64,000 nucleotides of DNA from Azorinus chamasolen (taxonomy: Eukaryota > Mollusca > Bivalvia > Cardiida > Solecurtidae). This document shows positions 15,195 to 60,968 of this stretch, piece by piece (position 1 is the first letter of the stretch; the number at the start of each line of letters is the position of its first letter). Below the pieces are notes generated by a model. The model was not told the DNA's origin and did no database searches. It was given only the letters and a program-made list of their open reading frames with translations. A program made the translations under genes and the position numbers. The DNA lies in contig OY755240.1 of the NCBI GenBank assembly GCA_963576725.1, positions 56,730,633 through 56,794,632 of the forward strand, written 5' to 3'.

Positions 15195-15634
15195 GTTTCC
15201 TTGTTGAACATTCAGGTATGAAATTATGACATCATGAATATTTATTAGCTGAATTTTTACAGTTGCATGTATACAGTAAAACCTCTCTATAATGGCCACT
15301 AAATTGTGTTAACTAGTAGGTATTTTGGGCAGGTGGTTGCTTAAAGCAAGGTGAAAGTAAAACAGAACGCTCCCATAGGAGCGTTCTGTTTTATTTTCAC
15401 CTTGCTTTAAGCATCCATCTGCCTCTAACACAAAATACTTGATGTAATTTAGTGGTCGTTATAGAGAGGTTTTACTGTATATACATGAATGTTTGGTATT
15501 GGTAGGAACTGTAGAGTTAAATCTTATATCGTTTTATAAGCAAACCAAGCAGACCCTGATCAGATGGCTCCTACAGGAACCATCTGATCTGGGTCTACTC
15601 TTGTCTGTAAACTTGTTAAAAGGAGTAATTATGG
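15195..15634 (-). mobile_element. TTAA-A MITE interrupted by C
   Basis: Left part tttccttgttgaacattcag; right part has the hairpin arm caagcagaccctgatcagat and ttatggag. A C element sits between. Confidence 0.75.
15274..15477. mobile_element. TA-C MITE nested in A
   Basis: TA-CAGTAAAACCTCTCTATA ... TATAGAGAGGTTTTACTG-TA, hairpin centre cgctcccataggagcg, arms about 45 bp with one or two mismatches. Confidence 0.92.
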
Positions 15635-22880: not shown

Positions 22881-23103
22881 TTAACCCATTCCCTCATAGG
22901 CTATTTTTAGACCCAACCTCTTTGAATAAATCTACTGAAAAGGAGCATTTAATAGCAAAAAGGAAAATTTTAGAATTGTGTAGGATTGAAACCATTGTGA
23001 TAAATTGAGCATTTGCTCCTATGGAGCAAATGCTCTATTTACCACAATGGTTTCAAGAAGTGGTAGAGGCATAGAAAGGCGTATTTATGGAGGAAAGGGT
23101 TAA
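22881..23103 (+). mobile_element. TTAA-B MITE
   Basis: TTAACCCATTCCCTCATAGG to GGAGGAAAGGGTTAA; hairpin centre tttgctcctatggagcaaa. Confidence 0.9.
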
Positions 23104-25297: not shown

Positions 25298-25554
25298 TTA
25301 ACCCTTCGCTTGCTATTCGCGTCAATATACCTACCTGTAAATAGTGAAGACCCAGATGAGACAGCTCCTGCAGGAGCTGTCTCATCAGGGTCTGCACTAT
25401 TTACTATTTACAAGTTGAATGTGCAATCAGTGCTTTCCACAGCAGTGATTGCACAGCGAAATACTTGTACACAGTGAAGATATATGTTATTATACAACAG
25501 GGCATGGGTAAAGTAGGAGAAATGTATTTTAAAATTCAGCAAGCGAAGGGTTAA
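25298..25554 (-). mobile_element. TTAA-E MITE with two hairpins
   Basis: TTAACCCTTCGCTTGCT to AGCAAGCGAAGGGTTAA. Hairpin 1 spans about 25338-25405 (centre agctcctgcaggagct). Hairpin 2 at 25421-25454 is gtgcaatca ... tgattgcac. Confidence 0.9.
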
Positions 25555-26875: not shown

Positions 26876-27090
26876 CCATTCCAAAATTGGATATTTTAAG
26901 ATCCTACCTCTTTGAATAAATCTAACCAAAAGGAGCATTAACTAGAGAAAAGGAAAATTTCAGAATTGTGTAGTTTTGAAACCATTGTGATAAAAAAAAG
27001 CATATGCTCCTATGGGGCAAATGCTCTAATTATCACAATGGTTTCAGAAAGTGACTTTTACAGAGGCATCAATATGAGGGAATGGGTTAA
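26870..27090 (+). mobile_element. TTAA-B MITE
   Basis: B body and hairpin with an A-rich expansion (gataaaaaaaagcat); right end GAGGGAATGGGTTAA. Confidence 0.8.
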
Positions 27091-27114
27091 AATATGTATC
27101 TATGAGGTAAAAGG

Positions 27115-27330
27115 TTAACCCATTCCCTCATATTGATGCCTCTGCAAAAGTCACATGTTGAAACCATTGTGATAAAAGTATTTGCTCCCATAGGAGCAAA
27201 TGCTCCATTTATCAAAATGGTTTTACACCACAAAATTCTAAAATTTTCCTTTTCTTTAGTAAATGTTTCTATTTGGTAGTTTTATTCAAAGAGGTTGGAT
27301 CTAAAAATAGCCTACGAGGGAATGGGTTAA
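27115..27330 (-). mobile_element. TTAA-B MITE
   Basis: TTAACCCATTCCCTCATATT to GAGGGAATGGGTTAA; the two ends form a 17-bp inverted repeat. Confidence 0.88.
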
Positions 27331-33900: not shown

Positions 33901-36900
33901 AAAATCATCATTTCTCAACCAAACCCAATGTTGTGACCACTCTTGAAAATCGTCTCTAAGAGACATTTTTAAAGAGTGGCCAAAACACAGGGTTTTGTGG
34001 AGAAAAGTTATTCTTGATTTTTTTTTAATTTAAGCATCTTATCTGGACCTATCTGATAGATATTGTATATTCACCTGTCTCTGGTATGTTGCTAGTGGCA
34101 GTGACCTGGGACAGACACACACGGCCTATCTGTATTAAGAGACTCGTCCCGTCCTCACACAATGGTGGAAACGCTGCACAGACTTGTACCAAATGTGGAA
34201 GTGTCTGGGAGAAAAACTCCACTCGCTTGTTGGCCTCAAGAACTAAGAAACAAATCAAGAAATACATGTATTCTTTGGCCTTTAGCTAGCTCAGCAAATT
34301 CTAACTGGCCAAAAAGTACTTCATCAATTCTATTTGTTGTTGTTTTTTTTCTTCTTTTTTTTCCCATAAGAAACATAAATACAGTAAAAAACCCTCTAGA
34401 GAAGAATTTAGATACTTTTAGGCAGGTGGCTGCTTAATGCAGGATGAAAGTCATGCAGAAAGCTCCTCTAGGAGCTTTCTGCATGACTTTCATCCTGCAT
34501 TAAGCTGCCACCTGTCTCCAAGAGTGACATTTATACTAAATTGAAAATCTGGTCTAGAGGGGTTTACTGTATAAAACTTTTTGGATCCTGATGAGATGTG
34601 CACTTACTCAGTATCTCATCAAGATCTATTTGCAGAGATAATCTCAAATTTATTCATAAATGTTAACTCTTACCCTGTTCAATAATCATGTATTAACCCT
34701 TTCCCTCATATAAATGTGTTTTCACACATTTGCAAACAGAGTAGACCCAGATCAGACGGCTCCTAGGAGCCGTCTGATCAGGGTCTGCTCTGTTTGCTAA
34801 TAAAATTTGATAGATTTGTTTCTTTAGTTTCTAAAATGTCTTCCATATTTCTTTATAATTATTTTGTTAATGAATATTCATTAGGTATTGAAATTCGGCC
34901 TAAATACAGAACAGGGAAAGGATTAAGAAATAATGACATCATGAATATATATTGGCTGAATTTTTATAATGTGAACTTTTCAAGGATTTTTTTTTGCTTC
35001 AACAAAAATTGTAGAATCAGATCTACATTTTGTATATCATATCAAAAGCAAACAGAGAATACCCTCATCAGACGGCTCCTATAAGAGGGCTTCTATCAGA
35101 GCAATCTGATCTGGGTCTACTCTGTTTGCAAAGGTGTTAAAAGGCATATTTATGGAGTAAATGACTAAAAGTATTGGGCACAAATAATATCAACAAAATA
35201 CTGAACGCTGTTTCACATGGAGTAGACCCAGATCAGAAGGCAGTAGACCCAGATCTCTGTTTGCTTTTGAAATTACATTAATAGACCTGATCTGATCTGA
35301 TCCTGCTTTTGAAATTACAACAGATCTGATCCTACAGTTTCTTCCAATACTAAAACATTCGTATGTACATATTTATGATGTCATTAATTTCTTAACCCAT
35401 TCCCTCATATTAACGCCTTTTGGCTCCTCTGTTAAATTCACTTTGTGAAACCATTGTGATAAATAGAGCATTTGCTCCTATGGAGCAAATGCTCTATTTA
35501 TCACAATGGTTTCAAAACTATACAATTCTAAAGTTTTCCTTTTCTCCAGTAAATGCTCCTTTTGGGTAGATTTATTCAAAGAGGTAGGATCTAAAAATAG
35601 CTTATGAGGTAATGGGTTAAATAAATATTCAACAGGGAAAGGGTTATAAGACACATCCTAATTACCCTAAGTGTGTGGACACCCAATCTCCCCCTCTCCA
35701 TAGGATTATAAAGTAAATTTGGCATCATTTTGTTAATACTAACCACTTTCGGTGCCAATGTCGCCTATTGGCACCACTGAAAACAGTGCAGTCCCAGGTC
35801 AGATGCCGCCTTTTTAAGGCGGCATCTGACCTAGGACTTCACTGTTTTCTGTATTATTTTAGCCCAAGCATACAGGTTTTAAAAACAAATGTTTTATAAT
35901 ATATCTTCATTATTTAGTTTAGAATTATATTTAATATGAAATTATTATTGCAGACGACACTTTTAAATTTGACAGCCAAAAGAGTAGGTCCTGTAGGAGC
36001 TGTCTGAACAGGGTCTGCTCTGTTTGCTTAAGAAATAATATAGACGTGATTCTACAGTTTCTACTATGGCCAAAATTTCCTGTGCCCATGCCCCTTTGTA
36101 AAACAAATAATCTAATTAAATATTCATAAGGTCATTATTTCTTATATGAATATTCATGGAGTAAAGGTTTAAATTAGACTGACATAGAAGCATATAGTGT
36201 AGACCTTCATCCAACATCTCAACCAGGAGCAGTTTCATCTGGGTATAGACTATTTGATTAACCTTTTCCTAACATAGTTATAATGAATTATGGAAGGTGG
36301 TACATTGTAGCCATTTTAGAAAGTGAGGAAACCGATCTATCAAATTCTATTAGCAAACAGTAAACCCTGATCAGATGGCTCCTCTAGGAGCCGTCTGATC
36401 TGGGTCTACTCTGTTTGCATATGCGTAAAAACATGTTTATATAAGGGAAAGGGTTAAAGGAGCTGTCTTACCTGGGTCTACTCTGTTTGCAATGGCATAG
36501 AAAGGTGTATTTCTGTAGGAAAGGGTTACCCGTTTCCCCGTTTCATATTTATTCAAAATTTCTTCACCTCGTGAATATTCATGCACATAATCAATAAAAT
36601 GCAAAATGGCTTTTTTCACTGTTGCTTATGAAATCATATACATATAGATCTGATTCTACAATTTCATCCATGAAATTCCTTTGTCAGTGGACATTACAAG
36701 CATGAATATTCTCCTACAGGAGCCCTGTGATCAGGATCTGCTCCATTTGGAATGGAATTTGATAGATCTGTTTCATTAGTTTCTGATATGGCTACAATGT
36801 TCCACCTTCCATATTTCATTATAACTAATTTGTCCATGAATATTTGGTAGGTACATGTATTGGAATTTCAACTAAATATAGAACAGAGAATATATTAAAA

Positions 36901-39900
36901 GCAGGTGCTTTAAAGGCAGGTGAGTGCTTAACCCATTACTCTATAAATAAGCCTTTCTACGCCTAGGAGCCGTCTGACCAGGGTCTGCTCTGTTTGCTTA
37001 ACCCTTTCCTCTATAGGCTATTTTAGATCCATCCACTTTGAATAAATCTACCGAAAAGGAGCATTAACTAGAGAAAAGGATTTTTTTTTAGAATTTTGTA
37101 GTTTGAAACCATTGTGATAAATAGAGAATTTGCTCCCATAGGAGCAAATGCTCTATTTATCACAATGGTTTCATAAAGAGACAGTTTCTATTGTGGTCAC
37201 AGATTTCCATGTCCATGTAACAGTATAAAAAATAATCTTATATTAATGATCTCATGGTGTTAAGGGTTAATGTAGAATGGAAGTTATCCTGAAAACTCCT
37301 AAGGAAGCATTCTCCCCAAGTTTTACTGTAGACTCAGCTACCACCTGTCTTAACCCTTTCCTCCATAAATATGCCTCTGCAATAGTCACTTATTGAAACC
37401 ATTGTGATAAATAGAGCATTTGCTCCATAGGAGCAAATGCTCTATTTATCACAATGGTTCCAATACTACACAATTCTAACATTTTCCTTTCCTCTAGTAA
37501 ATGCTCCTTTTCGGTAGATTTATTCAGAGATTGGTCTAAAAATAGCCTATGAGGTAATGGGTTAAAGATCAAATGTTTAAGGTCTTTTGAGTGGCTGTTG
37601 TAGGTTGTTTTTACTGTACAAGAATTTTCTCACCTCAAATCATAGAGAACATGCTCTTTTCTTACCTCCTATCATAGAGAACATCACATTTATACAGAGT
37701 TTTGCTATACTCAGTGACTTTGGCAAGGCATACTGCTCACACAGGTAAGCTGTTAACCTGATGGCAAAAATCTGAAAAACAAAAAACAATAAATAAATGA
37801 AAACATGGGCTAAATATTCATAAACAAGAGTGTTCCAAGGAACATGTGTGTCACCTGCTGGCAGAAGTGAAAAGAAAAAAAGAGTGATGAAAACAATTTA
37901 ACAGATTGGGAAAAAAACATACAAATGAACAGACAACAGGAAAGTGATCCCTAACTGTTATCTTGCTATTATAAGCTGTTATCACATAAAACATCTGACC
38001 AGAGTCAATCTAAGCATGGTGATCATAAATAACTAACAGATGTCCTTCTAACTGAATATAACTAGATTTGCGATACAGTAAAGTCCCTCTCAGCCGGACA
38101 TTAAAACTTAGTATCAGTGCCAGTCTTTCAGACAGGCGGAAGCTTAATGCAGCTTGAGAATCATGCAGAAAGCTTGAGTTTTCTGCATGACATTCACCCC
38201 GCATTAAGCAGCCACAGGCATAAAATAAACCCTAAATTGTTCTTTGTTAAAATTGTGATTTAGAGAGGTTTGAAAGTAAATGATGCAACATAGTGTCATG
38301 GTCAAACACTTTCTGACATTTTTTTTTTATCAATTTCATTTATATTCATCAAGCAAAATTAATGATTAACCCATTCCCGCATAGGCTATTTTTAGATCCA
38401 ACCTCTTTGCTTAAATCTACCAAAAAGGAGCATTTACTAGAGAAAAGGAAATTTTAAGAATTGTGTAGTTTTGAAACCATTGTGATAAATAGAGCATTTG
38501 CTCCTGTGGAGCAAATGCTCTATTTATCACAATGGTTTCACAAAGTGAATTTTATAGAAGTGTCAAAAGGCGTCAATATGCGGGAATGGGTTAATCAATA
38601 ACATACCCGTTACCTTTTTTCTATGACATTATTAACAATTTACCCTTTACTTCATGAATATTCAGGACACAAAATAATGACATCATGAATAATTATTGGC
38701 TGATTTTTTTTAAAAATGGCATATCGAGGGCTTGAAGCAAAGCAATTGTAACTCCTTCACTTTGTGAAGGAGTTACAATAGTTTTGCACCAAGCCCTCAA
38801 TATGAAAACAGGATTATTTGGAAATTGCAGAAACTGTAGAATCATATCTTTATAATTCCCTTAGCAAACAAAGCAAACCCTGATCAGAGAGCTCCTACAG
38901 AAGCCATCTGATCTGGGTTTACTGCTGTTTGCAAAGGCGTGAAAAAGACATCTCCATAAGGAAAAAATTTGAACATCTAAAAATTCAATTGTTTTCAAAT
39001 GCCTGGTTACCTGCTTGTCCATCTGGGGCTGACTCAGCATCTCAGGGATGTAGTCCAGACAAATGTGCATGGACGGGATACCAGCCACAGTCACAGGAAG
39101 GAGCTCACTTGGATAGCCCTGTATATAAATACATGTATACACAAGTCACCAATGTGAAAGCATGTTGTCAGAGGTCCAGATAAGATATGTAAATTAACCC
39201 TTTCCCTGTTCTATGTTTATTCCAAATTTCAATACCTTCTGAATATTCATTAACAAAAATACTTAAAAGAAATATGGAAGGTGGAACATTGTAGACATTT
39301 TAGAAAGCAAAGAAACAGATATTTCAAATTCTAGTAGCAAACAGAGTAGACCCTGATCAGACGGCTCCTCTAGGAGCCATCTGATCTGGGTCTACTGTGT
39401 TTGCAAATGCGTGAAAACACGTTTATATGAGGGAAAGGGTTAAAACATTTTCAAGAATAACTCCTGTATTTCTCCAACAAACCTTATACTGTGACCACTA
39501 AAGACATGTTCATGAATTTTCGGTTTCAATCTCAGAAGTGAATATATGCCTAAATGTATGTAATAATGTCAAGTGGAATAGTTATGTGGATATTCTTTCT
39601 AGAAATTCAAGGCAAGTGGGATGAAAACACAAGACACATCCTATAAATCTATATTTATGTCGAACAATTGAAAACAACACAAACTGACAACTAAAATGCA
39701 AAAGAAGCATCAAATATCAACACCATACAATGTTCCGGCTTTGTTTCCAGTTGTCTATGTACATAGGTAATTGGCAGATCGACTCATGTATGGTAAAATT
39801 CCTTTGAATCAATAGCACTAAACAGAAAAAAATGTTTGACATTTTGAAAAGATTGACTCATATAAGGTTGACACATAAATGGAATTTCATATAGAATAGA

Positions 39901-42900
39901 CAAGCCAAGCTTTTGGGACTTGGAAAGGAGATTGACTTAATGAGACAGTCGAAGGTCAACACATAGAAGTCGCACTGTACCTGAAAATGTACCACCTTGG
40001 CCAAGTTGGGATCCGATATAAATGCTTGATGGATGTATGAGCAAATGAGAGACCTCACCTCACTCAGACTGTTCAATAGACCTGCCCCCTCCTGAAATGG
40101 AATATATATAGGAGATCTTACATAAAACTTCAATAAGAAATGGGATTTATTAAATTGAGCAGATCTTACTGTTTGAAATGGCACTATATTTCCCTTTTAA
40201 ATTAACCCGTTACCTCAAATAAACATCTTTTAACGCATTCGCATCTGTAGACCCAGATCAGATGGATCCTATAAGAGCCGTCTGATCAGGGTCTGCTCTG
40301 TTTGCTTTTGACATAATATAACCTATGCGGGAATGGCATGATGAAAGTGATGCAGTAAGCTGAATGCATTAAGCTCCCCCCTCCTGTCTTAAAAAACTGA
40401 AATTTGACCTCTTTTGAGTGGTCTCCACAGACAAGTTTAATTGTTTTCAGGCAGAGTAGAACCTGTCTTAAGCGGCTATTTTAAAATAATTTATTTCTTG
40501 AACTTAGGAGTCTTAAAAAGCAGGTGGCTGCTTAATGCAAGGCCTTCAGGAGCTTTCTGCATTACTTTTGATCTGCATTAAGCTACCACCTGCCTTACAG
40601 ACCAATAATTAGATCTCATTTTGATGGCTGCTTAAAACAGGTTCTATTGTACATCACCTGTTTGTCAGTGTCTGTTGCCATGCAGTACTCCAGTAATATC
40701 TGTATGACAGCGCTCTCCTGGGCCGCCAGCAGGGCCCCCTTCAGCTCCTGTCTGTCCTGGTCTACCTGACTGTTTCCGTCCAGCACCGGGTTAGACTGGA
40801 TATGGTTCTCCATGTAGACCCGACATGCCAATGTGTACGCAGACAGAATACGCAGCACTATCTCCAACACTGGGGCACACCTAAAATAAAAACAATTGTA
40901 ACCCGTATCCCACTGTGCACAACCCGACTGGCATAGGCAAACAGCTTAGATCAAGACGAGACGCCACTGTCTCATTTGGATCAAAGCTGATTGACACTTT
41001 GTTAACCCTTTCCTCCATAAATACGCCTTTTTACGCCTCTGTCACTTTTTGAAACCATTGTGGTAAATAGAGCATTTGCTCCTATATCACAATGGTTTCA
41101 ATACTACATAATTCTAAATTTTCCTTTTCTCTAGTTAATGCTCCTTTTTGGTAGATATATTCAAAGAGGTTGGATCTAAAAATAGCCTATGAGGGAAAGG
41201 GTTAACCCTTTCCTCATATAAACACCTTGCTAACAGAGTAAACCCAGATAAACTGGCTCCTATATCTGATCAGGGTCTGCTTAGTTTACTTATGGAATTA
41301 AATGTATATAGATCTGATCCTACAGTTTTTGTCAAAGCAAAAAATTGACTTGAAAAATTACATTATAAAAATAAAATATAAATATTCATGAAGTGAACAA
41401 TTAAAGGCATAAATGTTCATTGGGGAAGGGGCTAAACCCATTCCCTCATACTGACACCTTTTGACACCTCTGACAGTAAAAGTCACTTTTTGAAACCATT
41501 GTGATAAATAGAGTGTTTGCTCCATGAGTAAATGCTCTATTTATTACAATGGTTTCAAAACACAATTATAAAATATTCCTTTTTCTAGTAAATGCTCCTT
41601 TTCAATAGATTTATTCGAAGATGTTTGATAGAAAAATAGCCTATGAGGCAAAAGGTAAACATGTTTTCACGCATTTGCAAACAGAGTAGACCCAGATCAG
41701 ACGGCTCCTAGAGGAGCCGTCTGATCAGGGTCTGCTCTGTTTGCTGAAAGAATTTGATAGATATGTTCCTTTACTTTCTAAAATGTCTACAATATTCCAC
41801 CTTCCATATTTCTTTCTAACTATTTTGTTAATGAATATTCAGTAGGTATTGTAATTTGGACTAAATACAGAACAGGGAAAGGGTTAATAGTGTCTCAAAA
41901 GCTGGAACAAAGAATATACATATACACGTAGTAAAATTGCACCAGGTCAGAAGTCAATTATTTACAGCAGGATAAAGAGGTAAAAATAATTTGAGCTGTA
42001 AGCAATATAAGGCTAATGAATACCCTCACTTCTATGTACCAGAGCAACAGATAAATGTGCGTACTCAGATACTAAAATTGTCATTTCTCCACCAAACCCT
42101 ATGTTGTGACCACTCTTTAGAATCGTCTTGAAGAGATGATTCTAAAGAGTGGTTACAACATAGGGTTTGGTGGAGAAATAAAGGAATTATTCTTGAAAAT
42201 ATTCTAATTTATGCATCTAATCTGGAGCTCTGATGTACTATACAGCGGGATAACAGGTAAGAATAATTTGCGCTGTAAGCAATTTAAGGTTAATGAAAAC
42301 CACCATTTCTATCTATGTACTGCCAGATCATTACAAAAAATTGCATGTGCCCAGGGCACCATGGTTGTTCTGCTTTCATAACACATGGTATAAAACTGTC
42401 GGAGTAAAAAACTTCAAATAAATACTTCAAATGTCTTTGAGTCAACACATACTAACCTTTGACTCATTACTTTATGAATATTCATGAAAGACTCAAGCCT
42501 TTATGTATAAGATCTATCTAATTTCTTGCACTAAAATGTAATTTTCCTTCTCTGCATGGCAAACAGAAGAGAATCAGATTTGTAATATTTTACCCTTACA
42601 CACTAGAAGAGGTTTTAGTCCGTAGAAAACGCTGTTAGATGCATTGGTCTACTCACCTATAAACTCTGTAGTCATAGCTACAAAGGTGCATACCCAAATA
42701 CTAAAATCGTCATTTCTCCACCAAACCTTATACTGTGACCACCCTTTAGAATTGTCTCTTCAAGACAATTCTAAAGAGTGGCTACAGTATAGGGTTTGGT
42801 GGAGAAATAAAGGAGTTATTCGTGAAAATATTTTAATTTATGCACTTTATCTGGATCTCTGGTTGTCAGATGCATTGGTCTACTCACCTAAACACTCTGT

Positions 42901-45900
42901 AGTCACAGCGGAGCACAATGAGAGGATCTACTGTGACGTCTGTCTCGGAGTATGCAGAAAATTTAAACACCTTTTTCTTCTGGGGCCTAAGAGCATTCAC
43001 TGTTGCAAGGCGAAGACTGTAAAAGCATCGACATTTAAAAATACAAGAGGGCCAGAATGGCCCTGAAGCGCTCACCAGGCAATCAGAGGAGAAGATTTTC
43101 AAAGTTTTCACTATATGTTTCTATAGAAAACTAGCCTGCCCTGGGGAGGGGCTAATTTTGACCCAATAGGCATAATTTATATAACTTTTGTAGAGGACCT
43201 GAACATGATGCTATGTGCAAAATATGAAAGCTGAGAACCTTCCAGTTTCAGAGAAGAAGATTTTCAAAGATTTCACTATTTGTTTCTATCGAAAACTGCC
43301 CACCCCTGGGGTGGGGCCAATTTTGACCCCGGGGCCATAATTTATTTAAATTTTGTAGAGGACCTACACATGATGCTATGTGCCAAATCTGAAAGTTGAG
43401 AACCTTCAAATTTCAGAGAAGAAGATTTTCAAAGATTTCACTATTTGTTTCTACTGAAAATTGCCCACCCCTGGGGCAGGGCCAGTTTTGACCCCAGGGG
43501 CACAATTTATAAAACTTTTGTAGAGGACCTGAACATGATGCTATGTGCCAAATATGAAAGCTGAGAGACTTCCATTTTCAGAGAAGATGATTTTCAAAGA
43601 TTTCACTATTTGTTTCTATTGAAAACTGCCCACCCCTGGGGCGGGCCAATTTTGACCCCAGGGCCATAATTTATATAACTTTTGTAGAGGACCTGAACAT
43701 GATGCTCTGTGCCAAATATGAAAGCTGAGAGACTTCCAGTTTCAGAGAAGAATATTTTCAAAGATTTCACTATTTGTTTCTATTGAAAACTGCCCACCCA
43801 TGGGGCGGGCCAATTTTGACCCCAGGGCCATAATTTATATAACTTTTGTAGAGGACCTGAACATGATACTCTGTGCCAAATATGAAAGCTGAGAGCCTTC
43901 CCAGTTTCAAAGAAGAAGATTTTCAAAGATTTCACTATTTGATTCTATTGAAAACTGCCAACCCCTGGGGCGGGATAATTTTGACCCCAGGGCCATAATT
44001 TATATAACTTTTGTAGAGGACCTGAACATAATTATATGTGCCAAATATGAAAACTGAGAACCTTCTGGTTTCAGAGGAGATGATTTTCAAAGTTTTACTA
44101 TATGTTTCTATTGAAAACAAGGCACCCCTGGGGCGGGCCAATTTTGACCCCAGGGGCATAATTTATATCACTTTTGTAGAGGACCTAAAGATGATGCTAT
44201 GTGCCAAAGATGAAAGCTGAGAACCCTGTGGATTTAGAGGAGAAGAATTTTAAAGGTTCAAATTGTTGACGACGGACACTGCACGACGCACGCCGACGGA
44301 CGACGGACATCAGGCAATCACAAAAGCTCACCCTGAGCACTTTGTGCTCTGGTGAGCTAATTAGAGGTCTCCTTAATCCACTTTGTCTACTTTATTTTTG
44401 TCATGACAACGTATAAAGAATATAATGAATGTACAGGTATTTACCATTTACCTAAGAGAGACGCCTTTTTATGCCATTCAGAGCTCCAGATAAGATGCGT
44501 AAATTAAAACATTTTCAACAATAGCTCCTTTATTTCTCCATCAAACCCTATACCGTGACCGCTCTTTAGAATCATCTCAAAGAGACGATTCTAAAGAGTG
44601 GTCACAGTATAGGGTTTGGTGGAGAAATGATGATTTTAGTATTTGGGTACGCACCCTTATCTGTAGCTGTGATGCCATTGCAAACTGAGTAGAACCTGAT
44701 TAGATAGCTCCTACAAGAGCCATCTGATCAGGGTCTGCTCTGTCGGGCTATGAAATATTATAGATCTGATTCTACAATTTTTGCAAAAGTAAAAAATAAT
44801 TGTATTCATACACAAATTGTGACAATAATAAAAAAATCATCTAATTGATGTTTTGTAATAATAAACAAGAGGACCCTGAGGGTCCTGGGGCGCTCACCTG
44901 ACATTTGTTAAGTGTTGGTTACAACAATGTTACACACAAGTAATGGACAAGATTTTTCTAAAATTTGAAAATATACAAGATATCATCATGTCTATGATTG
45001 CCAATTCTCTTCATTGCAAATCCAAACTAGCTCATTTAGATATTTAGCTGTATAAACAGCAAGCTTGCTACTTATATAGTTAAATACCTAAATGAGCTAA
45101 TTTTATGGACTAATGGTGAGGGTTGTGTTGAAAACAAATTAATATTTCTAATTTTCATTTGATAACATTGAAAATATCCATATTGTGCAGAGAGTTATGC
45201 AATCTGAAAGGCTTATGCAGACAAGGTACACATTACTATTGTAGCTTGAAAAGTTGACCGCATGTCTATGATTGCCAATTCTCTTCATTGCAAATCCAAA
45301 CTAGCTCATTTAGATATTTAGCTGTATAAACAGCAAGCTTGCTACTTATATAGTTAAATACCTAAATGAGCTAATTTTATGGACTATCGGTGAGGCTTGT
45401 GTTGAAAACAAATTAATATTTCTAATTTTCATTTGATAACATTGAAAATATCCATATTGTGCAGAGAGTTATTCAATCTGAAAGGCTTATGCAGACAAGG
45501 TACACATTACTATTGTAGCTTGAAAAGTTTATTCGAATACAGCCCCTCCAATAGGCTAAAGAATCACACGGCATAAGGTTATCATTCTGAGCAAGAATCA
45601 CACGGCATAAGATTATCATTCTGAGCAAGCGTGATCAAGATTAGGCAGAAAATGTGGCTTCTAGAGTGTAGGCAAGATTTTTCTAAGATTTGACCTAGTG
45701 ACCTACTTTTTCACCCCACACCACCCACAACCGAACTCAAATGAGAGATCATCAAGGTTATCATTCTGAGCAAGTTTGATCAAGATTGGGCTGAAAATGT
45801 GGCCTCTAGGGTGTAAACAAGATTTTTCTAAGATTTGACCTAGTGACCTACATTTTGACCCCAGCCCACCCATGATGGATCTCAATTGAGATATCATCAA

Positions 45901-48900
45901 GGTCATCATTCTGAGCAAGTTTGATGAAGAATAGGCAGAAAATGTGGCTTCTAGAGTGTAAACAAGATTTTTCTAAGATTTGACCTAGTGACCTACTTTT
46001 TGACCCAAGCCCACATATGATCAAACTCGATCAAGATATCATCAAGGTTATCATTCTGAGCAAGTTTGATGAAGATTAGGCAGAAATTGTGGCTTCTACA
46101 GTGTAAACAAGATTTTTTTAAGATTTGACCTAATGACCTACTTTTTAATCCTGCCCCACCCATGATCGAACTTGATCGAGATATCATCAAGAATATCATC
46201 CTGAGCAAGTCTGATCAAGATTGGACTAAAAATGTGACCTCTAGATTGTTCACAAGGTTTTTCAATAATTTGACCCAGTGACCTAGTTTTTAACCGTATG
46301 TGACCCACTTTCAAACTCATCCAAGTTTCTATCAAGACAATCATTCTGACTAAGTTTCATGAAGATTGGACTAAAAATGTGACCTCTAGAGTGTTCACAA
46401 AGATTTTGAATAATTTGACCTAGTGACCTAGTTTTTGACCCCACATGACCCACTTTCGAACTCATCCGAGATTTTTTCAAGACAATCATTCTGACCAAGT
46501 TTCATGAAGATTTGGCTACAAATGTGACCTCTAGAGTGTTCACAAGCCAAATGTTGACGACGCACGACGCACGACGCACGACGCACAACGCACGACGCAC
46601 GACGACGGACGCCGGACGGAGCACCATGACAATAGCTCACTTGAGCAAGCTCAGGTGAGCTAAAAAGCATCTAACTAGAACTTAATTTTAAAAAAACAAA
46701 ACATATGTCACCTGCTTGTTATTAGAAAAAGTGAAATTTCCAAGTAAAAACGGACACACAACTCTATGAAAAATTAGCATGAAATTTTGATAATTTTACA
46801 CGAAAGTAATGGAATAGTAAATACTGTAGACCCAGATCAAACTGCTCCTTGACGATGGGTCTACACTATTTGCCTAAGTTTGTTTGTCCAAATACTTAAT
46901 CCATTCCCCCATAGGCTATTTTTAGATCCAACCACTTTGAATAAATCTACCCAAAACGAGCATTAAGTAGAGAAAAGGGAAATTTTAGAATTGTGTAGTT
47001 CTGAAACCATTGTGATAAATAGAGAATTTGCTCCTTAGGAGCAAATGCTCTATTTATCACATTGGTTTAAAAAAGTGACTTTTACAGAGTCGTAGAAAGG
47101 TGTATTTATGGAGGAAATGGTTAATGTAACTGTGGTAAATCTATTATGATGAATCTGTACCTTCTTGGGGTTAGAGAATGAATCCTGAACCAAAGTTTCT
47201 TCACCAGATCAATAATCTTTCTTGGAACTGATGGCGACAGAATCAAAGGGAGACAATTCACTATTTCATCACTAAAGGGGAGTAATTCCTCAAGTGGCAA
47301 ATCCATCAATCTTTGTAACACCATGAGAAGTTCTGTGGGACAACCTGATAGGTTCTGAAGAGCTGTAAATAAAGACAGAATGATGCTTTCCAGATAATGG
47401 TATTGCAGATAAAATTGGAAAGTGAAATTGTCAAAGCAAAATGATAGCACTCCAGAGCAACAGATAAGGTGCGTATTCAAATACTAAAATCCTCATTTCT
47501 CCAACAAACCCGATGTTGTGACTGCTCTTTAGAATCGTCTCTTCGAGATAATTCTAAAGAGTGTTCACAACTTAGGGTTTGGTTGAGAAATAAAAATGAA
47601 CGACTACCTTGTCAGAGACAGATCTATAGCAAGCATTTTAACCCATTCCATCATATGTTATTTTTAGATCCAACTGCTTTGAATAAATCTACTAAAAAGG
47701 AGCATTTACTAGAGAAAGAAAATTGTTAGAATTTTGTACTTTTGAAACCAACGGAGCAAATGCTCTATTCATCACAATGGTTTCAAAAAGTGACTTTTAC
47801 ATAGGCGTCAAAGGGCATCAACATACGAAAATGACTTTAATTGCACACCGCGCTTGAATGCCAATTTTCATGAAATGATTAGGTAAATGGACAAAATAAA
47901 CCAACATAGATGTTCAGGCTAGAATCTAAGAAACATGTTCATCAGGTAGAAAGTTAAGAATCAACCATTATACAGTCATATTAACCCGTAACCCTTTACC
48001 CCATAAATACACCTTTCTACACCTATGCAAACAGAGTAGACCCAGATCAGGTGGCTCCTGTAGGAGCTGTCTGATCTGGGTCTGCTCTGTTTGCTTATGA
48101 AATAATATAAGGCTGACTCTACAGTTTTTTTCTGATACCAAAGATTCCTGTGTACAAATGCCATAAAAAAAATCTAATTAATATTCAATCATGATGTCAT
48201 TATTTTTTACATGAATATTCATGGGGTAAAGGGTTAAAGTGTGGGAATTGAGTATATATAAGACCTCTGCCAACAGTGTAGATCCAGATCAAAGGGCTCT
48301 TGAGGAAGCCCTTTTATCAGGGTCTAAACTGTCATAAAAAAAATTCTTCAGTAATACAATAGTTAGTTTAATTAATATTCAGAGAATGAGGGCCCGGTTT
48401 TAACCCTTTGCTTGCTGTTCACATCAATATACCTACCTGTAAATAGTGAAGACCCAGATGAGACAGCTCCTGCACTATTTACAAATTGATAGTGCAACCA
48501 GTGCACTCCACAGCAGAGATTGCAGAGAGAAATAGTTGTGGACAGTGAAGATATATGTAATTATACAACAGGGCATGGGTAAAGAAGAAGAAATGCATTT
48601 TAAAATTCAGCAAGAGAAGGGTTAATTATATAGCAGATGTTTCTTTACATTCATGTAAAAAAAATAAATGACTGAGATAGAATTATAGACAACAGCATTA
48701 TAGAGTTAGATCTTACCATGTTTGAACTGGTGAATGGAGCACTTTCTGAGACCATGTGACCCCGTAAGCTGAAGCTCCAGGGAAGGCTTCAGTATCTCCT
48801 CCAGCCAGTCCTCTATGATACACAGGTGGGGAAACTTGTTCACCAACAATCTGAAACGAAGTATATCCCTCAACATAGTGCACATGTATATGTTTTTAGA

Positions 48901-51900
48901 AGTGTCATGAAGTAAAATATCATTATACACTAGGTTGACACCAGTTATATCACACACCCTTAAATTTATTATGGAGGATATACACATTAGTAACTAGATT
49001 TGTATTTTGTATAATTTCATTCCTATCCTATAATAATATTCTTTGTCAGAGCTGGACACGCACTGTTTTGACCCTAACATTGTATTGTTATTTGGATGGT
49101 GAAATAAAATATAATTCAAAAATGACTGAAATTTATGCAGACAAAAAATTCTTGACCCTTTAATCCATATATACGCTTTTCTACACCTTTGCAAACAGAG
49201 TAGATCCAGAGCAGATGTTTAATCAGGGTCCTGCTTTGTTTGCTTATGATATAATAAAGATATGATACTACAGTTTCTGCCATGGCCAAAAATTGATGTG
49301 TCCATGTACTATTATAAAAATTAATCTAATTAATATTCATGATATCAGTATTTCCTACATGAATACTCATGGAGTAAAGATTTAAAAGTGTTAACCCTTT
49401 ACTCCTTAAATACACCTTTCTACGCCTTTGCAAACAGAGTAGATCCAGATCAGGGTCTGCTCTGTTTGCTTCTGATATAATATAGATATGATTCTGCCAT
49501 GGCCAAAAACAGATTTCCGTGTCCATGTGCTATTATAATAATTACTTAAATTAATATTAATAATGTAATTATTTCTTACATAAATATTCATGGAGTAAAG
49601 GGTTTAAAAATTATAACTTCAAGTACAGTAAAACCACTCTATAGCCACTGCACAATCAAGGCTAATTTAACCCTTTCCCTTATATAAATGTGTTTTCACG
49701 CATTTGCAAACAGAGTAGACCCAGATCAGACGGCTCCTTGAGGAGCCGTCTGATCAGGGTCTGCTCTGTTTGCTGATAAAACTTGAAAGATCTGTTTCTT
49801 TACTTTCTTAAATGGCTACAATGTTCTGCCTTCCACATTTCGTTATAACTTTTTTGTCCGTGAATATTCAGTATGTATTGAAATTGTACTAAACATAGAA
49901 CAGGGAAAAGGTTAACGTTTTACCCCATAGAGGCAACTTTTGGCATCTTTGCAAACAGACTTGACCCAGATCCTGTAGAAGCTGTCTGATCAGGGTCTGC
50001 TCTGTTAGCTTATGAAATAAGCAAATAATAATTAGATGTATTTCTATAATAATAAGATGTATTTCTATGCGTTCTGCCATGTTAAGATTACCTTGTTGCT
50101 GATGCCACTAAAAAAATCTGCAAATTAATATTCAAAGAGTCATTATTTCTGATATGAATTTTCTTGATGGATGGGTTATTTGTCTGTCCTCAACACAGAT
50201 GGTAGCTTAATGCACAGGGCAACCAGTACAGAAGCTCCTGAAGAAAGCTCCTTCAGGAGATCTTCTGTTATACTTTCATTCAGCATGAAGCACAATCCTG
50301 CTTTTAAAGACCACTGTTTATTCACCATGAGATTGCTTTAACCCTTTACTCCATAAATATGCCTTTCTACGTCCCAGATCAGACTGCTTCTGTAAGAGCT
50401 GTCTGATTAGAGTCTGCTCTGTTTGTGTATGGAATAATACAGATGTGATTCTACAGTTTCTCCTATGGCCAAACAATCCTGTGTCCATGTGCTATCATAA
50501 AAAATTATCAAATTGCCATTCATGGTGTCATTATTTCTTACATGAATAGTCATGGAGAAAAGAGTTAAAGAAGTTCTACAGTATTCACTTACTTAAGGAG
50601 TGATGAGAACAGACCACCATACAGGTCCTGTCTCTTCTGTGCCTGTTGTATAAGGTGGTTAATTGGTATTGTTGAGAAAAGCGAGTCTGGGTACGAGTCT
50701 GCGGCCCTCCCCGACATCACTGTTGACAGGAAAAACAAGATTAGATACTGCAAGACAGTCCATATTCCACATAGTCTCAACACAACATTTAACCCTTACA
50801 ATGCTGAATTTTCAAATGGACTATTCCAATATTCAAACAGGTCAAGCTTATGGTGAATATTTCGGGATTTTTCTAAAGATAAGTGTAACATCACAAACAC
50901 TACAGACCCTGCTGAGAGGACTACTCTAGGAGCCGTCTCATCTGTTTACAAAGAACATTAGTGACTAGCGTCCTAAACTGTAAATATCTACACACAGAGT
51001 ATAACCAGAGCTGTCTGATCAGTACAGGGTCTGCTCTGTCTATTTATGGAATAATATAGACGTGATAGTTTCTGATAAAGCCAAAACTTGCCTTGTTTAT
51101 ATATCATTCTAAGAAATCAGTGACTAATCAATATTCATCAAGTTATTATTTCTTACATGAATATTTATTAAGTAAAGGGATGAAATGCAGATCTGATCCT
51201 ACAGTTTTTGTCCATGCCAACAAATTCCTTTTGAATTTTAAATTTTGAACATTAACCCATTCCCTCATAGGCTATTTTTAGATCAAACCTCTTTGAATAA
51301 AGCTACCGAAAAGGAGCATTAACTACAGAAAAGGAAAATTTTAGAATTCTGCAGTTCTGAAACCATTGTGATAAATAGAGCATTTGCTCCTAAACAATGG
51401 TTTCAAAAGGTGGCTTTTACAGAGGCGTAGAAAGGCGTATTTATGGAGGAAAGGGTTAAGTTAATGAATATTCATAAAGTGATCACATCATGCATAAATG
51501 TTCATTAGGAAGAGGGTTAATCCTTTCCCTGTTCTATACCTAGTGCAAATTTCAATACCTACTGAATATTCATGGACAAAATTGTTATAATGAAATCGGG
51601 AAAGTGGAACATTGTAGACATTTTAGAAACTAAAGAAACAGATCCATCAAATTCCATTTGTAAACAGAGCAGACCCAAGAGAAGCCATCTGATCTGGGTC
51701 TTCTCTGTTTGCAAATGCGTGAAAAATACTGAAAATGCATTTAAATTAAGGAAAAGGTTAACATGTAAAATATTGTAATTTTTTTAGGGCCCATAATTTT
51801 AGATCAACTAGTCTACATTGGGCAGTAATCAAACTTGACCAAGACCTTGTATATATATTGAATACAAATACCCAGTTTGTGTATGATATTTTTATACCTT

Positions 51901-54900
51901 TTCCTTCATACAAACGCCTTTTACACACATTTGCAAACAGGGTAGACCCATATCAGACGGTTTCTGTAGGAGCTTATGATCAGGGTCTACTCTGATTACT
52001 TGATGTCAAATTATAACAGATCTGCCTTTACAGCACAGCTGCTACGAATATTCATGCACACATATGCCACTGTGAAAAATTCAGCTATTGTATATTCATG
52101 ATGTCATAATATCTTAATCCTTTCTTCCATAAATACGCCTTTCTATGCCTCTGTAAAAGTCACTTTATAAAACCATTGTGATAAATAGAGCATTTGCTCC
52201 TACAGGAGCAAATGCTCAATTTATCACAATGGTTTCAAACCAAAAAACTCTAAAATATGCCTTTTCTTTAATTAATGCTCCTTTTCGGTAGATTTATTCA
52301 AAGTGGTTGGATCTAAAAATAGCCTGAGAGAATGGGTTAAATGAATATTCAAACAGGGGAAGGTTTAATGAACTAATTTTGTTGACAGACGGAGTACTGT
52401 ACTCAGGTGAGCTAAAATGCCCAAAACAATGACACTTACATAGATTTTTTCTTTGTGTGTCCAGGGTATCTTCAAACAACAAAATGTAGTACAACATACA
52501 AAGCTGTGGGGCTAGATTTATCTCCCCTTCTGAACTTGGCTGCTGAAACAATGACAACATATTAATTCACATTAACATATAAATTCATATTAATTTTCAT
52601 GATGTTATTATTTCTTAATGAAATTATTGTTTGGTTTCTATACCATCAGAAGAACAGACAGACAGACCAAAAGAAGACAGATATGTGATAAATGAATCAT
52701 CCCTAAGCATTTCAAAGCAAATGCACTGTTCACTCTTTACCTGATGAATATTCACGTAAGATTACACTCATTTGTACGATTATTAATTTAATTAATGTAT
52801 TAATTATATGATTTTTTTTAAATAAAATTTATTGTCATGGCAGGAGAGAAACAGATTTGTTACATAACAATTATATGCTAAAAGAGCAGACTCTGATCAA
52901 CTGCCCCTACAGAAGTTGTTTGATCTGGGCTTACTCTGTTTGTCGAGGTATTAAAAGGCAGGAATATCAAGTAAAGGGGTAACCCTTTCCTTCATACAAA
53001 CAATTTTTCACAGCTCTGCAAACAGAGTAAACATAGATCAGATGGCTCCAGCAGGACCCATCTGGGTCCATGCTTATAAAGCTTTTTAGTTGAGTCTGAG
53101 TTCGTTCTCAAGCTTTTGATTGGTCAGATTTGAGTTCTCAAGCTTTTGATTGGTCAGATTTGAGCCAAAGGCTCAAATCTGACCAATCAAAAACTTGAGA
53201 ACGAACTCAGACTCAACTAAAAGTTTTATAAGCATGGACCCTGATTAGGGTCTGCTCTATTTGCTTATGAAATTATAATAGATCTGACTCTAGAGTTTTA
53301 CACGAACAACGTGTATTTGTGATACGACATTTGACCTTGATGTATGACCTTGACCTTAATAAGTCACATAATTTTCACATGCATGCTAAGTTTGAAGGTA
53401 TGTATGTGCAACAGACAGACAGAGCAAAAACAATATGCCCCCAAAATTCCTGTGTACGGTACATAACTATTCATGATGTCATTATTTCTCGCATGTATAA
53501 TCTGCAGAGAAAGCGTTCAGCAGATGCAGTAACTATGTAAATTCTTAGACCTTTACAAAAACTGTATCTGTATAGAGTTTGGCAATTGCTGCAGTCTCCA
53601 GGGGCTGGTTGGTCTGGTCTGATTTAGAACTCTTCACGAGCACTGAGCTGACATACACCTCCAGTAGGGAAGGCAGGAGTGGATGTAGAGGGGTGCCACA
53701 GTGTGTAATCTGTCGGTAGATCCAGTCCTGTAAATACAATAGCAACATACTGGTTTAATCCTTTCTTTCATTCAAATGCCTTTTCACACATCTGCAAACT
53801 GTCAGAGTAGATCCAGATCGGACAGTTCCTATAAGAGCCTTCTGTTCAGGACCTGCTCTGTTTGCTAATGAAATTTGAAAGATCTGTTTCTTTATTTTCT
53901 AAAAATGGCTACAATGTTCAACTTTCTATATTTTATTAAAACTAACTTGTCCAAGAATATTAAGTAGGTATTGAAATTCGGAATACACACAGAACAGGGA
54001 AAGGCTTCAGAAGGTGAAATTACCATGTAAAAGATTTGAAACAACAGTTTCTAGACTAGTTTCTCTCCTATCAGTGTTTTTCAAAGCAGTTTAGCTTTTG
54101 AATTATGGCATGTGACAGTAGAAATCAAGACACAAACTACACATCAGAGGGTGGTACTAACCTTGATTGGCACTTTATATTTTGAGAAGGCCCGGCTCTT
54201 CAGCAATTGATAGATACAGTGTATAGGCAGGTAGCCTCCCATGTTGGCATTGAGATTCTCTGTCACAGGCACAGTTACGGCATGGGCAGTGATCACCTGA
54301 AAATAAGGCCAGGAATAGGTTAATTCATTCTTTCCTAGTGACGCATTTTGGCGCCTCTGTAAAAGTCACAATTTGAAACCATTGTGATAAATAGAGCATT
54401 TGCTCCATAGGAGCAAATGCTCTATTTATCACAATGGTTTCAAAACTAAGCAATTCTAAAATTCTCCTTCTCTATAGTTAATGCTCCTTTTCGGTAGATT
54501 AACTCAAAGAGGTTGGGTCTAAAAATAATCTAGGAGGGAATGAGTTAACCCATTCAATACAACACTAATGACCCTAAGTATTCAGACATTTCAGTCTCCT
54601 CTCTCTACCAGTTGTACAGCTATACAATTCACTTTTGGACTTCTTTTGCAACCTTGAATTATACTGACATACATGTAGTAGCAAATAGTGAAGACACCAA
54701 TCTTATATTTGTAAAGACATTGATTTTTACTCGTATTGACACATTTAAATTTGATTAGATTGATAAAAACTTGAAATCTTACTGTGTAATATCCACATAA
54801 TCATTAACCCATTCCCTCATCGGTTATTTTAGACTCAACCTCACCGAATAAAACAACCGAAAAGGAACACTTTCTACAGAATATTCATAATACATTCTTG

Positions 54901-57900
54901 CTCATCTAGCACTTTAATTTCTTGACCACTTTTGCTTTAAGAGTTGTCATGAATAAAAGCTTGGACGAGTTTGATTTTCAGAAGAATCTGTCATGGGGAG
55001 CCACTTTTTTTCTCCAACAATGTGGTGGCTTGGGGTATGTGAGTTTGCTCACCAAAGTTCTTTAACCCTTTCTTCCATAAATACGCCTTTCTACGCCTCT
55101 GTAATAGTCCCTTCTTGAAACCATTGTGATAAATAGAGCATTTGCTCCATAGGAGTCAATGCTCTATTTATCACAATGGTTTCAATACTACACAATTCTA
55201 AAAATTTCCTTTTCTCTAGTTAAAGCACCTTTTTGGTAGATTTATTCAAAGAGGTTGGGTCTAAAAATAGCCTATGAGGGAATGGGTTAATTCTATAAGA
55301 AGTTTAACACTTACTTGTTCAGTAAATATTTCTTGTGTGAAGATTTGCCGAATTCTGGCAATGGCATTGGCCTTTACTGGGCACTGAAATCAATAAACAA
55401 GAACATTGAAAACACAGCTGTAAGAAAGAGGAGATAACACATAGGTTCCATTGGATCATATTACTCTTCTTAATAACCCTTTCCTCCATGAATATTCGTG
55501 TAAGAAATAATGACACGATGAATATTTATTACATTTATTGTTTTATAATAGCACATGAACACAGAAAGTTTTGGTCTTCACAGAAACTATAGAATCATAT
55601 CTTTATCATATCTTAAGCAAATAGAGTAGAGACATCTGATCTGGGTCTACTCTGTTTGCAATGGCATAGAAAGGCGTATTTATTCAAAATTTCTTCACCT
55701 CATGAATATTCATTCACGGAATCAATAAAATGGACCAGGGAAAAGGGATTTTCCTAGCTATTGTGGAAACTGCATAATCAGATCTATAAATATCCAAGCA
55801 AACAGAGCAGAACCTGATCAGAAGGCTCCTACAGAGGCTATCTGATCTGGGTCTACTCAGTTTACAAATGTGTGAAAAGGCATTATATGAGGAAAAGGGT
55901 TAAATTCTCCATAGAACAAGGTGTGTTTGTAGAAACACTATGCCTCAAACAAGCATTTTGACCTATAATTTTGACCTTGAAGTTTGACCTTGACCTTGCA
56001 TACAATCACAAGTTGCAGCTTCGTGAGATAAGTATACATGCCAAGTACAAGGAAACAGTTTAGTTCTTTTCAGGTTGTATGGGGCTCTCAGACACAACCA
56101 GACAAATGAACTGTTTCGACACTATGGATCAATTGCAGATATCCTCTGCGAACAATCTGGATCTAGGTGATATACCCTCAGTAATTCAATGTCCCATCAG
56201 GATGTCAGTTACTCAGCAGCTCATCAAGAGCCTAACTGGATGCATACATTATCACAGATGCGCACTACAGTGTAAAGAGTTAATCAAATTTTAAAGTTAC
56301 AGTTAACCCTTTACTCCATAAGTACGCCTTTCTACACCTTTGCAAACAGAGTAGACCCAGATCAGACGGCTCCTGTAGGAGCTATCTGATCAGGGTCTGC
56401 TCTGTTTGCTTAATATATAATATTGTATGATTCTACAGTTTCTGCCATGGCAGAAATGTCCTGTTTTATTGGTATTAAAGCAATTATTTCTAATTAATAT
56501 TCATGATGTAATTATTCTTACTTGAATATTCATGGAGTAAAGGGTTAAATGACAAATTGAATAAATTTTCAGCAAATACAAGTAATAAATATGGCAGTCT
56601 AACTATTAAGTTTAAAAGCTCAAACACTTTTAAATCTTTACTTGGTAGAGATACATATCTAAACATTTGCAAACAGGTTAGATACAGATCAGACTGCTCC
56701 GGTAAGAGCTGTCTGTTCAGGATCTGCTCCGTTTGCTTATGGACTAATATAGATCAGAATCTTACCTTACTACCATGGCAGAAAAGTCCTGCATTCATAT
56801 GCCAAAATAAATATTCATCTAATTAATATTTCATCAGGTAAAAGGTAACAAACTTGACACTCACCTTCATTCCAAGTGTAGAACACACCAGCTCTGATAT
56901 AGCATGCATATGGTTGCCATGGAAATGTATAGCTATCAGGAATAGCATTTCACCAAAGGATGAGCTTTTTCCAGCTGTTCTGTAACAGTTAACCCTCTAC
57001 TTCATGAATATTTATGCAAGAAATAACGATATCATGAATATTGATTAGCTTAACTATTATAATAGCACATGGACACAGGAAGTTGTAGCAGATACTGTAC
57101 AATCATATCTACAGTGAAACCCCGCTAATGCGACCACTTAATAAACAGCCACTAATGTCGTCTAAAGCAGGTGGTTGCTTAATGCAGGGCGAAAGTTATG
57201 CAGAAAGCTCCTATAGGAGCTTTCTGCATAACTTTCGTCCTGCATTAAGCTACCACCTGCCTCTGCCACCCAGAATTATGGCCCTTTTTGGTGGTCGCAT
57301 TAGCGAGGTTTTACTGTACACTAAAACCCCTCTCATGTGACCACCAAAAAGGGGCATAATTCAGTGGCAAAGGCAGGTGGTAGCTTAATGCAGGATGAAA
57401 CACCTGCTTATGAAGACAACCATCTTTGTTCATTAAGTGGTCGCAAAGGCGAAAGCGGCTCGTGAGAATACTACGGCCAAACAACCACTCATGTGATACA
57501 ACCGTTCATATATTCACTTCGTGTAATATTCCCTATTGTTATTGTTTGTCACACGTTATATCCATGTAACATGTGAAATTAACTGGCAGTCATTCGATTA
57601 AAATCATTGTCTGCCCCGTAAACAAATTGTACCTGTAACGTGAATTTCATTATTTAGCTAGTCAAAGAGTTAGGATCTTGACTAGGCACTTAGTTACTCA
57701 GAAAATGCACGTAAATAAGTTGAATAGGATTGGATCCAGATAATTTGCATAATTGTCAAATGTCTCAAAATGTCGATAACTTATACCATACTGGTGTCAA
57801 AGTAAATTGATGCTACGCTGATGTAAGGAAATAGAGTGAAGTATTGAATTCGTTCACTGATTGCTTCATATTCAATTATGAATTATTTATAAATATTTAG

Positions 57901-59711: not shown

Positions 59712-59814
59712 CTGGCAGAAAAGAGACAATATACCTTTTATAGACAAATGAACAGAAAACCAGATATTTTTCTAATGTGCATAGACCTAACTGAGAAGAC
59801 AGCTGATAAAGTGA

Positions 59815-60372
59815 GAGTGGGTGGACGAGTGACAGTGAAAGTGACAGTTGAGTGAGAGAGAGTGAGAAAATGAATGAGTTGGGGTAGAGGTGTGATTGAG
59901 AAAGTGAAAGTTAGAAAGGAAGTGTGTTGTGGTGAAGGGGGATTAAATAAGTGGGTGAGGTTTGTGATAATGGGAAAATGAATGAGTTGGGGTGAATGTG
60001 GGGTTGAGTGAGAGAAAGAAAAATAATGAGTTAGGGTGAATATAGAAGTTGAGTGAGTGAGTATGAGAAAATTTAGTAAGTTGGAAGAAAGTGGGAGTTG
60101 AGTGAGTGAGAAAATGAATGAGTTGGGTGAATGTGGGGGTTCAGTGAGAGTGAGAAAATGAGTGTGTTTGGTGAAAGTGGGGGTTGTGAGAGTGGGAGTG
60201 AGAAAATTAATTGATTGGATGAATGTGGGGGTCAAGTGAGTGAGAGTGAGAAAATGAATGAGTTGGTGAATGTGGGGTTTGGTTGAGTGAGACTGAGAAA
60301 ATCAAATGAGTGAATTGGGAAGGAGATGAGAGGTGAAGTGAATTAGTGAAAGGAAGGGAGAATGAGTGACAC
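59815..60372. repeat. Purine-rich minisatellite
   Basis: Irregular units around gtgagagtgagaaaatgaat gagttgggtgaatgtggg, 40-60 bp each. Strong G/A strand bias; its - frame gives a Thr/His/Ser/Pro-rich pseudo-protein. Confidence 0.9.
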
Positions 60373-60561
60373 CAATTTTAAACATTAGCACTCTTAGCCC
60401 ATCTCTTCTGTAACAATTTGAGCTACTTACAACACAGATTCTTCTTTCTTTTCTTTTAAAAAATGTGAGGATATCAAGCAGTCTGGTTCTTGATCAGTTG
60501 CCAATTTATGGGTTGTCTCATCCAGATCTAAACTATTTGCACTGATAATTACAATTTGTCA

Positions 60562-60698
60562 ATAACCCTTTACTCCATAAATAAGGCCTTCTTACGCCTT
60601 TGCAAACAGAGTAGACCCAGATCATCAGGAGCTATCTGATCTGGGTCTACTCTGTTTGCAAAGGCATAGAAAGGCGTATTAATGGAGTAAAGGGTTAA
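60562..60698. mobile_element. Fully palindromic TTAA-A derivative
   Basis: Both ends are the same A left end: ataaccctttactccataaa and mirrored tta atggagtaaagggttaa. Arms of about 60 bp run to gacccagatca; loop tcaggagctatc. Confidence 0.88.
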
Positions 60699-60738
60699 TG
60701 GTAAAGTGTAACACAATTGTAACTACATTTTTACCTTT

Positions 60739-60968
60739 TTAACACTTTTGGCGCCAAATTTAAAAGTGTCGTCTGCAATAATAATTTCATATTAAATATA
60801 TTCTAAACTAAATAATAAAGGTATATTAGTAAAACATTTGTTTTTAAAAACCTGTATGCCTGGGCTAAAAAAATACAGAAAACAGTGAAGTCCCAGGTCA
60901 GATGCCGCCTTGGAAAGGGGGCATCTGACCTGGGACTGCACTGTTTTCAATGGTGCCAAAAAAGTTAA
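60739..60968 (-). mobile_element. TTAA-F MITE
   Basis: TTAACACTTTTGGCGCCAA to GGTGCCAAAAAAGTTAA; hairpin at about 60884-60955 (gtcccaggtcagatgccgcc). Confidence 0.88.

Follow-up and report, generated by a model that had tools for sequence, protein, structure and literature searches.

The present work concerns a hairpin centre that recurs in miniature inverted-repeat transposable elements (MITEs) of the bivalve Azorinus chamasolen, in a window of 64,000 nucleotides on contig OY755240.1 (the window being the whole stretch of DNA analysed). With overlaps assigned to the best family, the window holds 114 hairpin copies of five types (A 70, B 21, C 15, D 6, G 2); the family letters come from an earlier note on this DNA, were assigned to the copies in our analysis and may differ from their usage there. 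A, A2, E and B elements have TTAA at both ends and short terminal inverted repeats starting with CCCTTT and, like TTAA-target MITEs of the piggyBac superfamily, they occur in many copies with no coding capacity seen; unlike these, they have a hairpin of about 68 bp in a subterminal position on the left, and by their ends they would be assigned to the TTAA-target class. Kolobok elements also use a TTAA target. C elements resemble palindromic mariner/pogo-type MITEs such as Made1 in their TA target, in being palindromic over most of their length and in their short loop, but they differ from Made1 in ending in CAGTAAAACC and in a tip common with the TTAA elements; by target and ends they would be assigned to the mariner/pogo type. 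Matching inverted ends, TACAGTAAAACC at 15272 and GGTTTTACTGTA at 15468, flank the C hairpin 15329-15422; only this copy (15272-15479) has both exact ends around its hairpin, those of the other C copies having diverged. In human Made1, 37-bp repeats are described around 6 bp (PMC1784062), and a high content of DNA elements, MITEs among them, has been reported for bivalve genomes, with PiggyBac and Mariner among the superfamilies found across molluscs (PMC10294476).

According to the earlier note, one hairpin centre, GCTCCTATAGGAGC, is common to MITE families whose ends are unrelated, and we were able to confirm this observation in part: the motif is real and enriched, whereas the premise that many unrelated families carry it is for the most part incorrect. 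Allowing up to two mismatches, CTCCTATAGGAG gave 54 matches, compared to a mean of 1.66 (standard deviation 1.30, maximum 6) in 100 shuffles of the window. By family, 38 of these matches belong to A, 10 to C and 4 to B, while the two without a family (2240 and 7953) lie within A-type elements as judged by eye. Moreover, the 40 perfect GCTCC-N2..4-GGAGC sites of the window are all found in A (22), B (11) and C (7) hairpins. All quoted examples were recovered, namely GGCTCCTATAGGAGCC (CTCC at 1638 and 59365), TTTGCTCCTATGGAGCAAA (23016 and 35475), AGCTCCTATAGGAGCT (24349 and 57208), CGCTCCCATAGGAGCG (15370) and AGCTCCTGCAGGAGCT (25365 and 33738), several of them outside the interval 38640-60968 to which the motif had been ascribed; in the window it spans about 1.2 to 59.4 kb. 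The statement that nearly all hairpins close on the motif is true of the consensuses and overstated for individual copies, and exact CTCC-N2..4-GGAG is retained in 23 of 70 A, 12 of 21 B, 9 of 15 C and none of 6 D copies. In a comparison from the loop outward, the tip was not common to the D, F, H and I hairpins (F, H and I being single hairpins or one tandem pair), as had been noticed for D and F.

The sharing has to be viewed in the light of relationships between these families. A search with one A hairpin as the query (nhmmer) returned 72 non-overlapping hairpins in the 64 kb, including the presumed E hairpins at 25338 and 33712 (E-value 1.8e-10 for both copies) and the presumed G hairpins at 35781 and 60880 (1.6e-5 and 6.4e-6). 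A, E and G hairpins align column by column, and their arms are homologous beyond the tip, which places A, A2, E and G in one lineage; given this homology of the arms, the centre of A, A2, E and probably G would be common by descent. When representative copies of A2 and of B are compared, 36 of the 37 bases that open one TTAA (left) end agree, but only 5 of the 12 that follow, the arms and right modules of the two being unlike. Between B and A arms identity stops 5-6 bases from the loop, and B cannot be joined to the A lineage through its arms. Among the 111 TTAA-type ends listed, the nearest hairpin is A-type for 54, with 18 of these at a distance of 38-40 bp that includes E-type ends of different end sequence, and B for 32 (11 ends at 43-57 bp, 14 at 102-109 bp). 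These distances, the left end common to A2 and B and the recovery of E and G with the A query imply that the TTAA set is one modular group, with C alone having another target and other ends (TA, CAGTAAAACC). The treatment of A, A2, B, E and G as unrelated families cannot be upheld, and three hairpin lineages carrying the tip are left (A, B and C), of which only C is of another class. Descent, which the earlier note had set aside as a cause, explains most of the sharing once the wrongly split A, A2, E and G are reunited; the C match is not explained by it.

On balance we lean towards the view that the window contains the remnants of a few MITE families, with A, A2, E and probably G as one inherited hairpin lineage, B in the same modular group and C separate. 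The A/A2/E hairpin, probably with that of G, would have been inherited through subfamilies at a position 38-40 bp inward of the left end in many TTAA elements, and the ends and right-hand modules of the subfamilies would have changed while the hairpin was passed on. B, in which the A2 left end is combined with arms and a right module unlike those of A2, is most likely a member of this modular group and might have kept or re-formed the GCTCC tip. For C, which is of another class, has a TA target and is palindromic over most of its length, the match with the A tip would represent one further event, either coincidence or an old capture. Decayed copies would then lose hairpin sequence from the tip outward, as would be expected of DNA hairpins cut at a short loop. 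Several points weigh against this view. The B tip may not descend from that of A: beyond the 5-6 tip bases the B arms are unlike those of A, and the left end common to A2 and B may have become attached to a hairpin of other origin. The two presumed G copies close on GCCGCCTT and not on the motif, that is, A-related hairpins have another centre. Moreover, C is not explained by descent, the three-way match of A, B and C is hard to obtain by chance, and only 3 of 14 truncated A copies end at the tip, which is no clear excess. If the favoured view holds, the apparent sharing between "unrelated" MITEs is mostly one hairpin module descending with changing flanks, and naming MITE families by their ends is a trap. 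Elements and hairpins of each kind are given in Table 1.

Table 1. Coordinates of elements and hairpins in the window.
Feature	Position	Strand	Remarks
A element, complete, TTAA CCCTTT ends	39194..39443	-	hairpin 39 bp inside left end, long module right
A hairpin of the 39194..39443 element	39337..39404	-	centre CTCCTCTAGGAG at 39365
A2 element, TTAA ends	56303..56548	+	hairpin 56342-56409, centre CTCCTGTAGGAG at 56370
E element, TTAA CCCTTCGCTTGCT ends	25298..25554	+	hairpin 25338-25402 found via A query, centre CTCCTGCAGGAG
B element, TTAA ends, A2-like left end	22881..23103	-	hairpin 22986-23056, centre CTCCTATGGAG
B element, TTAA ends	38366..38594	-	hairpin 38471-38540, centre CTCCTGTGGAG
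C element (copy at 15368 of the earlier note), TA CAGTAAAACC / GGTTTTACTG TA ends	15272..15479	+	hairpin 15329-15422, centre CTCCCATAGGAG
C hairpin	57167..57260	+	centre CTCCTATAGGAG at 57208
D hairpin, one of 6 copies	42084..42178	-	different centre, GTCT/AGAC
Presumed G hairpin, A-related arms	35781..35847	-	centre GCCGCCTT/AAGGCGGC
Second G-type hairpin	60880..60946	+	

Seven hairpin lineages were compared from the loop outward against shuffles; the score shuffle leaves the final base in place, which is a T in all of A, B and C, and is therefore conservative. A and C reached a score of 8 over 12 bases, with 10 of the 12 bases next to the loop alike, 6 of them contiguous, and none beyond; this was equalled for the pair in 0 of 2000 shuffles, and the family-wise p for any pair was 0.019. 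The corresponding values for A-B and B-C were p 0.007 and p 0.014, and a triple as good as A-B-C by score was obtained in 1 of 2000 shuffles. By contiguous identity A-B, A-C and B-C share 6 bases each, with an equal triple in 0 or 1 of 20000, and a contiguous match of 6 for any pair among four or seven lineages has p 0.006-0.038. Whether the B arm ends in T depends on the orientation chosen, and without this T the three pairs share 5, 6 and 5 bases, with an equal triple in 10 or 20 of 20000. All three lineages are unlikely to agree by chance (p for the triple from 0 to 0.001, according to the treatment of the loop base). Should A and B owe their tip to common descent, a single cross-class pair would be left (p about 0.006-0.04); this is suggestive rather than strong, since the feature was chosen because it had been noticed.

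That independent lineages share the 5-6 bases beside the loop by coincidence, as one feature picked from many possible ones, is in our opinion unlikely. The rarity of the triple under each of these schemes stands against it; with A and B as relatives, however, only the cross-class pair has to be accounted for, at the p values given above, the CAGA that extends the A-C match is part of ATGCAG, which is found twice in the C arms (by eye, in the C consensus), and D, F, H and I hairpins lack the tip. The match of C with the TTAA group may be due to chance. Should it hold genome-wide in further families, this would indicate exchange between elements moved by different transposases. An origin of the B tip from a third unit, GGAGCATTTACT, in its own right module was considered and rejected; the unit is present in many B copies, but 204 of 2000 shuffled modules match equally, and it is accordingly no evidence.

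Lesions in the copies are concentrated at the tip. Of 21 internal deletions, 13 end within 4 bases of the centre, compared to 6.51 expected (p 0.0036; six insertions left out, one alignment scheme), and hairpin tips look like weak points. These deletions fit the breakage of short-loop hairpins, since yeast MRX/Sae2 has been described to attack hairpins with loops of less than 9 nt (PMC8053094). Loops below 9 nt and lesions at the centre are features in common with the hairpin or cruciform breakage at palindromes treated in that report, whereas what is seen here are old deletions in repeat copies. Loss from the tip outward has statistical support, and hairpin cutting would be the mechanism behind it. 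A survey of inverted repeats reports more substitution sites than expected in their spacers (PMC13155455). With its 114 hairpin copies of five types in 64 kb and the tip-clustered deletions, the window represents a natural record of hairpin breakage. Two one-armed A hairpins (36457-36490 and 36964-36997) end exactly at the tip.

The same deletions would be expected if turnover were centred on the tip, that is, if the tip breaks and fold-back copying or template switching follows, by which new arms would take the place of the old ones and the tip would persist and be handed on from family to family. This would also be in line with A2 and B, which have end and tip in common but not arms, and with the element at 7881-8030, where A-type ends are seen by eye on both sides and CTCCTATAGGAG is retained at 7953 with both A arms gone. 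However, a foreign tip on both arms was found in none of the 69 tips that were readable among 106 A, B and C copies (37 being dropped), so the exchange of tips that the earlier note had suggested is not seen in existing copies; single arms nearer another family number five, all in A copies. Moreover, an A.A mismatch persists in 52 of 64 A copies and a T.G pair in 38 of 58, which implies that the two arms do not routinely serve as templates for one another. We regard such turnover as quite improbable, and give slightly less credit still to the tip as a self-priming nucleus of 12-14 bases that persists while arms are replaced and passes even between transposon classes. An old exchange of tips between source elements may have taken place.

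The interpretation offered by the earlier note, which had also included a common nucleating palindrome and a constraint on the loop, is partly supported. Against the former, GCTCC was found in none of the 320 perfect 5-bp palindromes with loops of 2-4 that lie outside hairpin copies in the window. As to the loop, no special constraint is visible, since the loop bases of A vary (TGTA 19, TATA 11 and TAGA 8 in 72 A copies) and the A tip columns, conserved at 0.83-0.95, are about equal to the arms, decayed copies being a weak test. Besides the two loop bases, the weakest columns in A are 26/27 and 42/43, which contain CpG. An unusually stable tip was rejected, 124 of 160 equally GC-rich clamps being more stable in a DNA energy model. 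A hypermutable loop was likewise dismissed; the loop bases differ between copies but may follow subfamilies, and we therefore claim no loop mutation rate.

A functional constraint, by which the palindrome GCTCCTNNAGGAGC would be a site for a transposase, a host protein or RNA processing that arose or was kept in several families, appears very unlikely to us. It would agree with the nearly fixed distance from the A hairpin to the end (18 ends at 38-40 bp), with some arm pairs of A in which both partners are altered (11 of 57 copies at columns 9/60, 11 of 60 at columns 26/43) and with the T..A that is mostly retained beside the variable loop bases, and palindromic MITEs such as Made1 have been described to turn into microRNA genes (PMC1784062). 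However, the tip columns of A are no better conserved than the arms, the G-type and D hairpins do without the tip, and a survey of molluscs reports no dedicated endogenous small interfering RNA pathway among its findings (PMC12479628).

A hairpins, e.g., 25338-25402, can be read as an open frame NSxDPDxTAPxGAV, and such open reading frames are predicted as proteins en masse in ENA assemblies. A piece of an open reading frame of the window that passes through an E hairpin gave 7 protein matches with E up to 1 among 11 candidates from these assemblies, and at E up to 10 a profile of six of the 7 proteins matched at least 7999 among the 8000 candidates scored. The pattern D.TA..G.. occurs in 109 of 122 proteins among the matches listed, its tip residue being I (101), L (4), M (2) or V (2); most of the listed proteins belong to a single family. 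We take this as a sign that other genomes contain A-type hairpins whose tip would be the same at the amino-acid level, as judged from protein sequences. For the peptide of a C copy no candidate protein was found, and scans of viral contigs with the A, B and C hairpin patterns gave 0 matches each. The generic tip pattern was met in at least 116 stretches of bacterial and archaeal contigs, as chance would give in that much DNA. Among the papers listed on MITEs, hairpin loops, palindromes, bivalves and template switching there was nothing on this motif, and the DNA strings matched one paper, on a different subject, with no match to the peptide strings.

Scans of the window for transfer RNAs and for Rfam families at gathering scores gave 0 matches each. 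Some further arrangements were observed in the course of this work. Two B elements lie in opposite orientation at 26976-27330, with a short stretch separating their TTAA ends, and a single hairpin of other sequence is found at 38720-38804 in the apparent right-hand module of an A2-type element. A second near-perfect inverted repeat with 51-bp arms lies at 53084-53222, inside the right part of an A hairpin, one of its arms containing a tandem duplication of 30 bp. Arrays of tandem units, 145 and 165 bp in length, occupy 1-842, 43083-44225 and 45609-46546.

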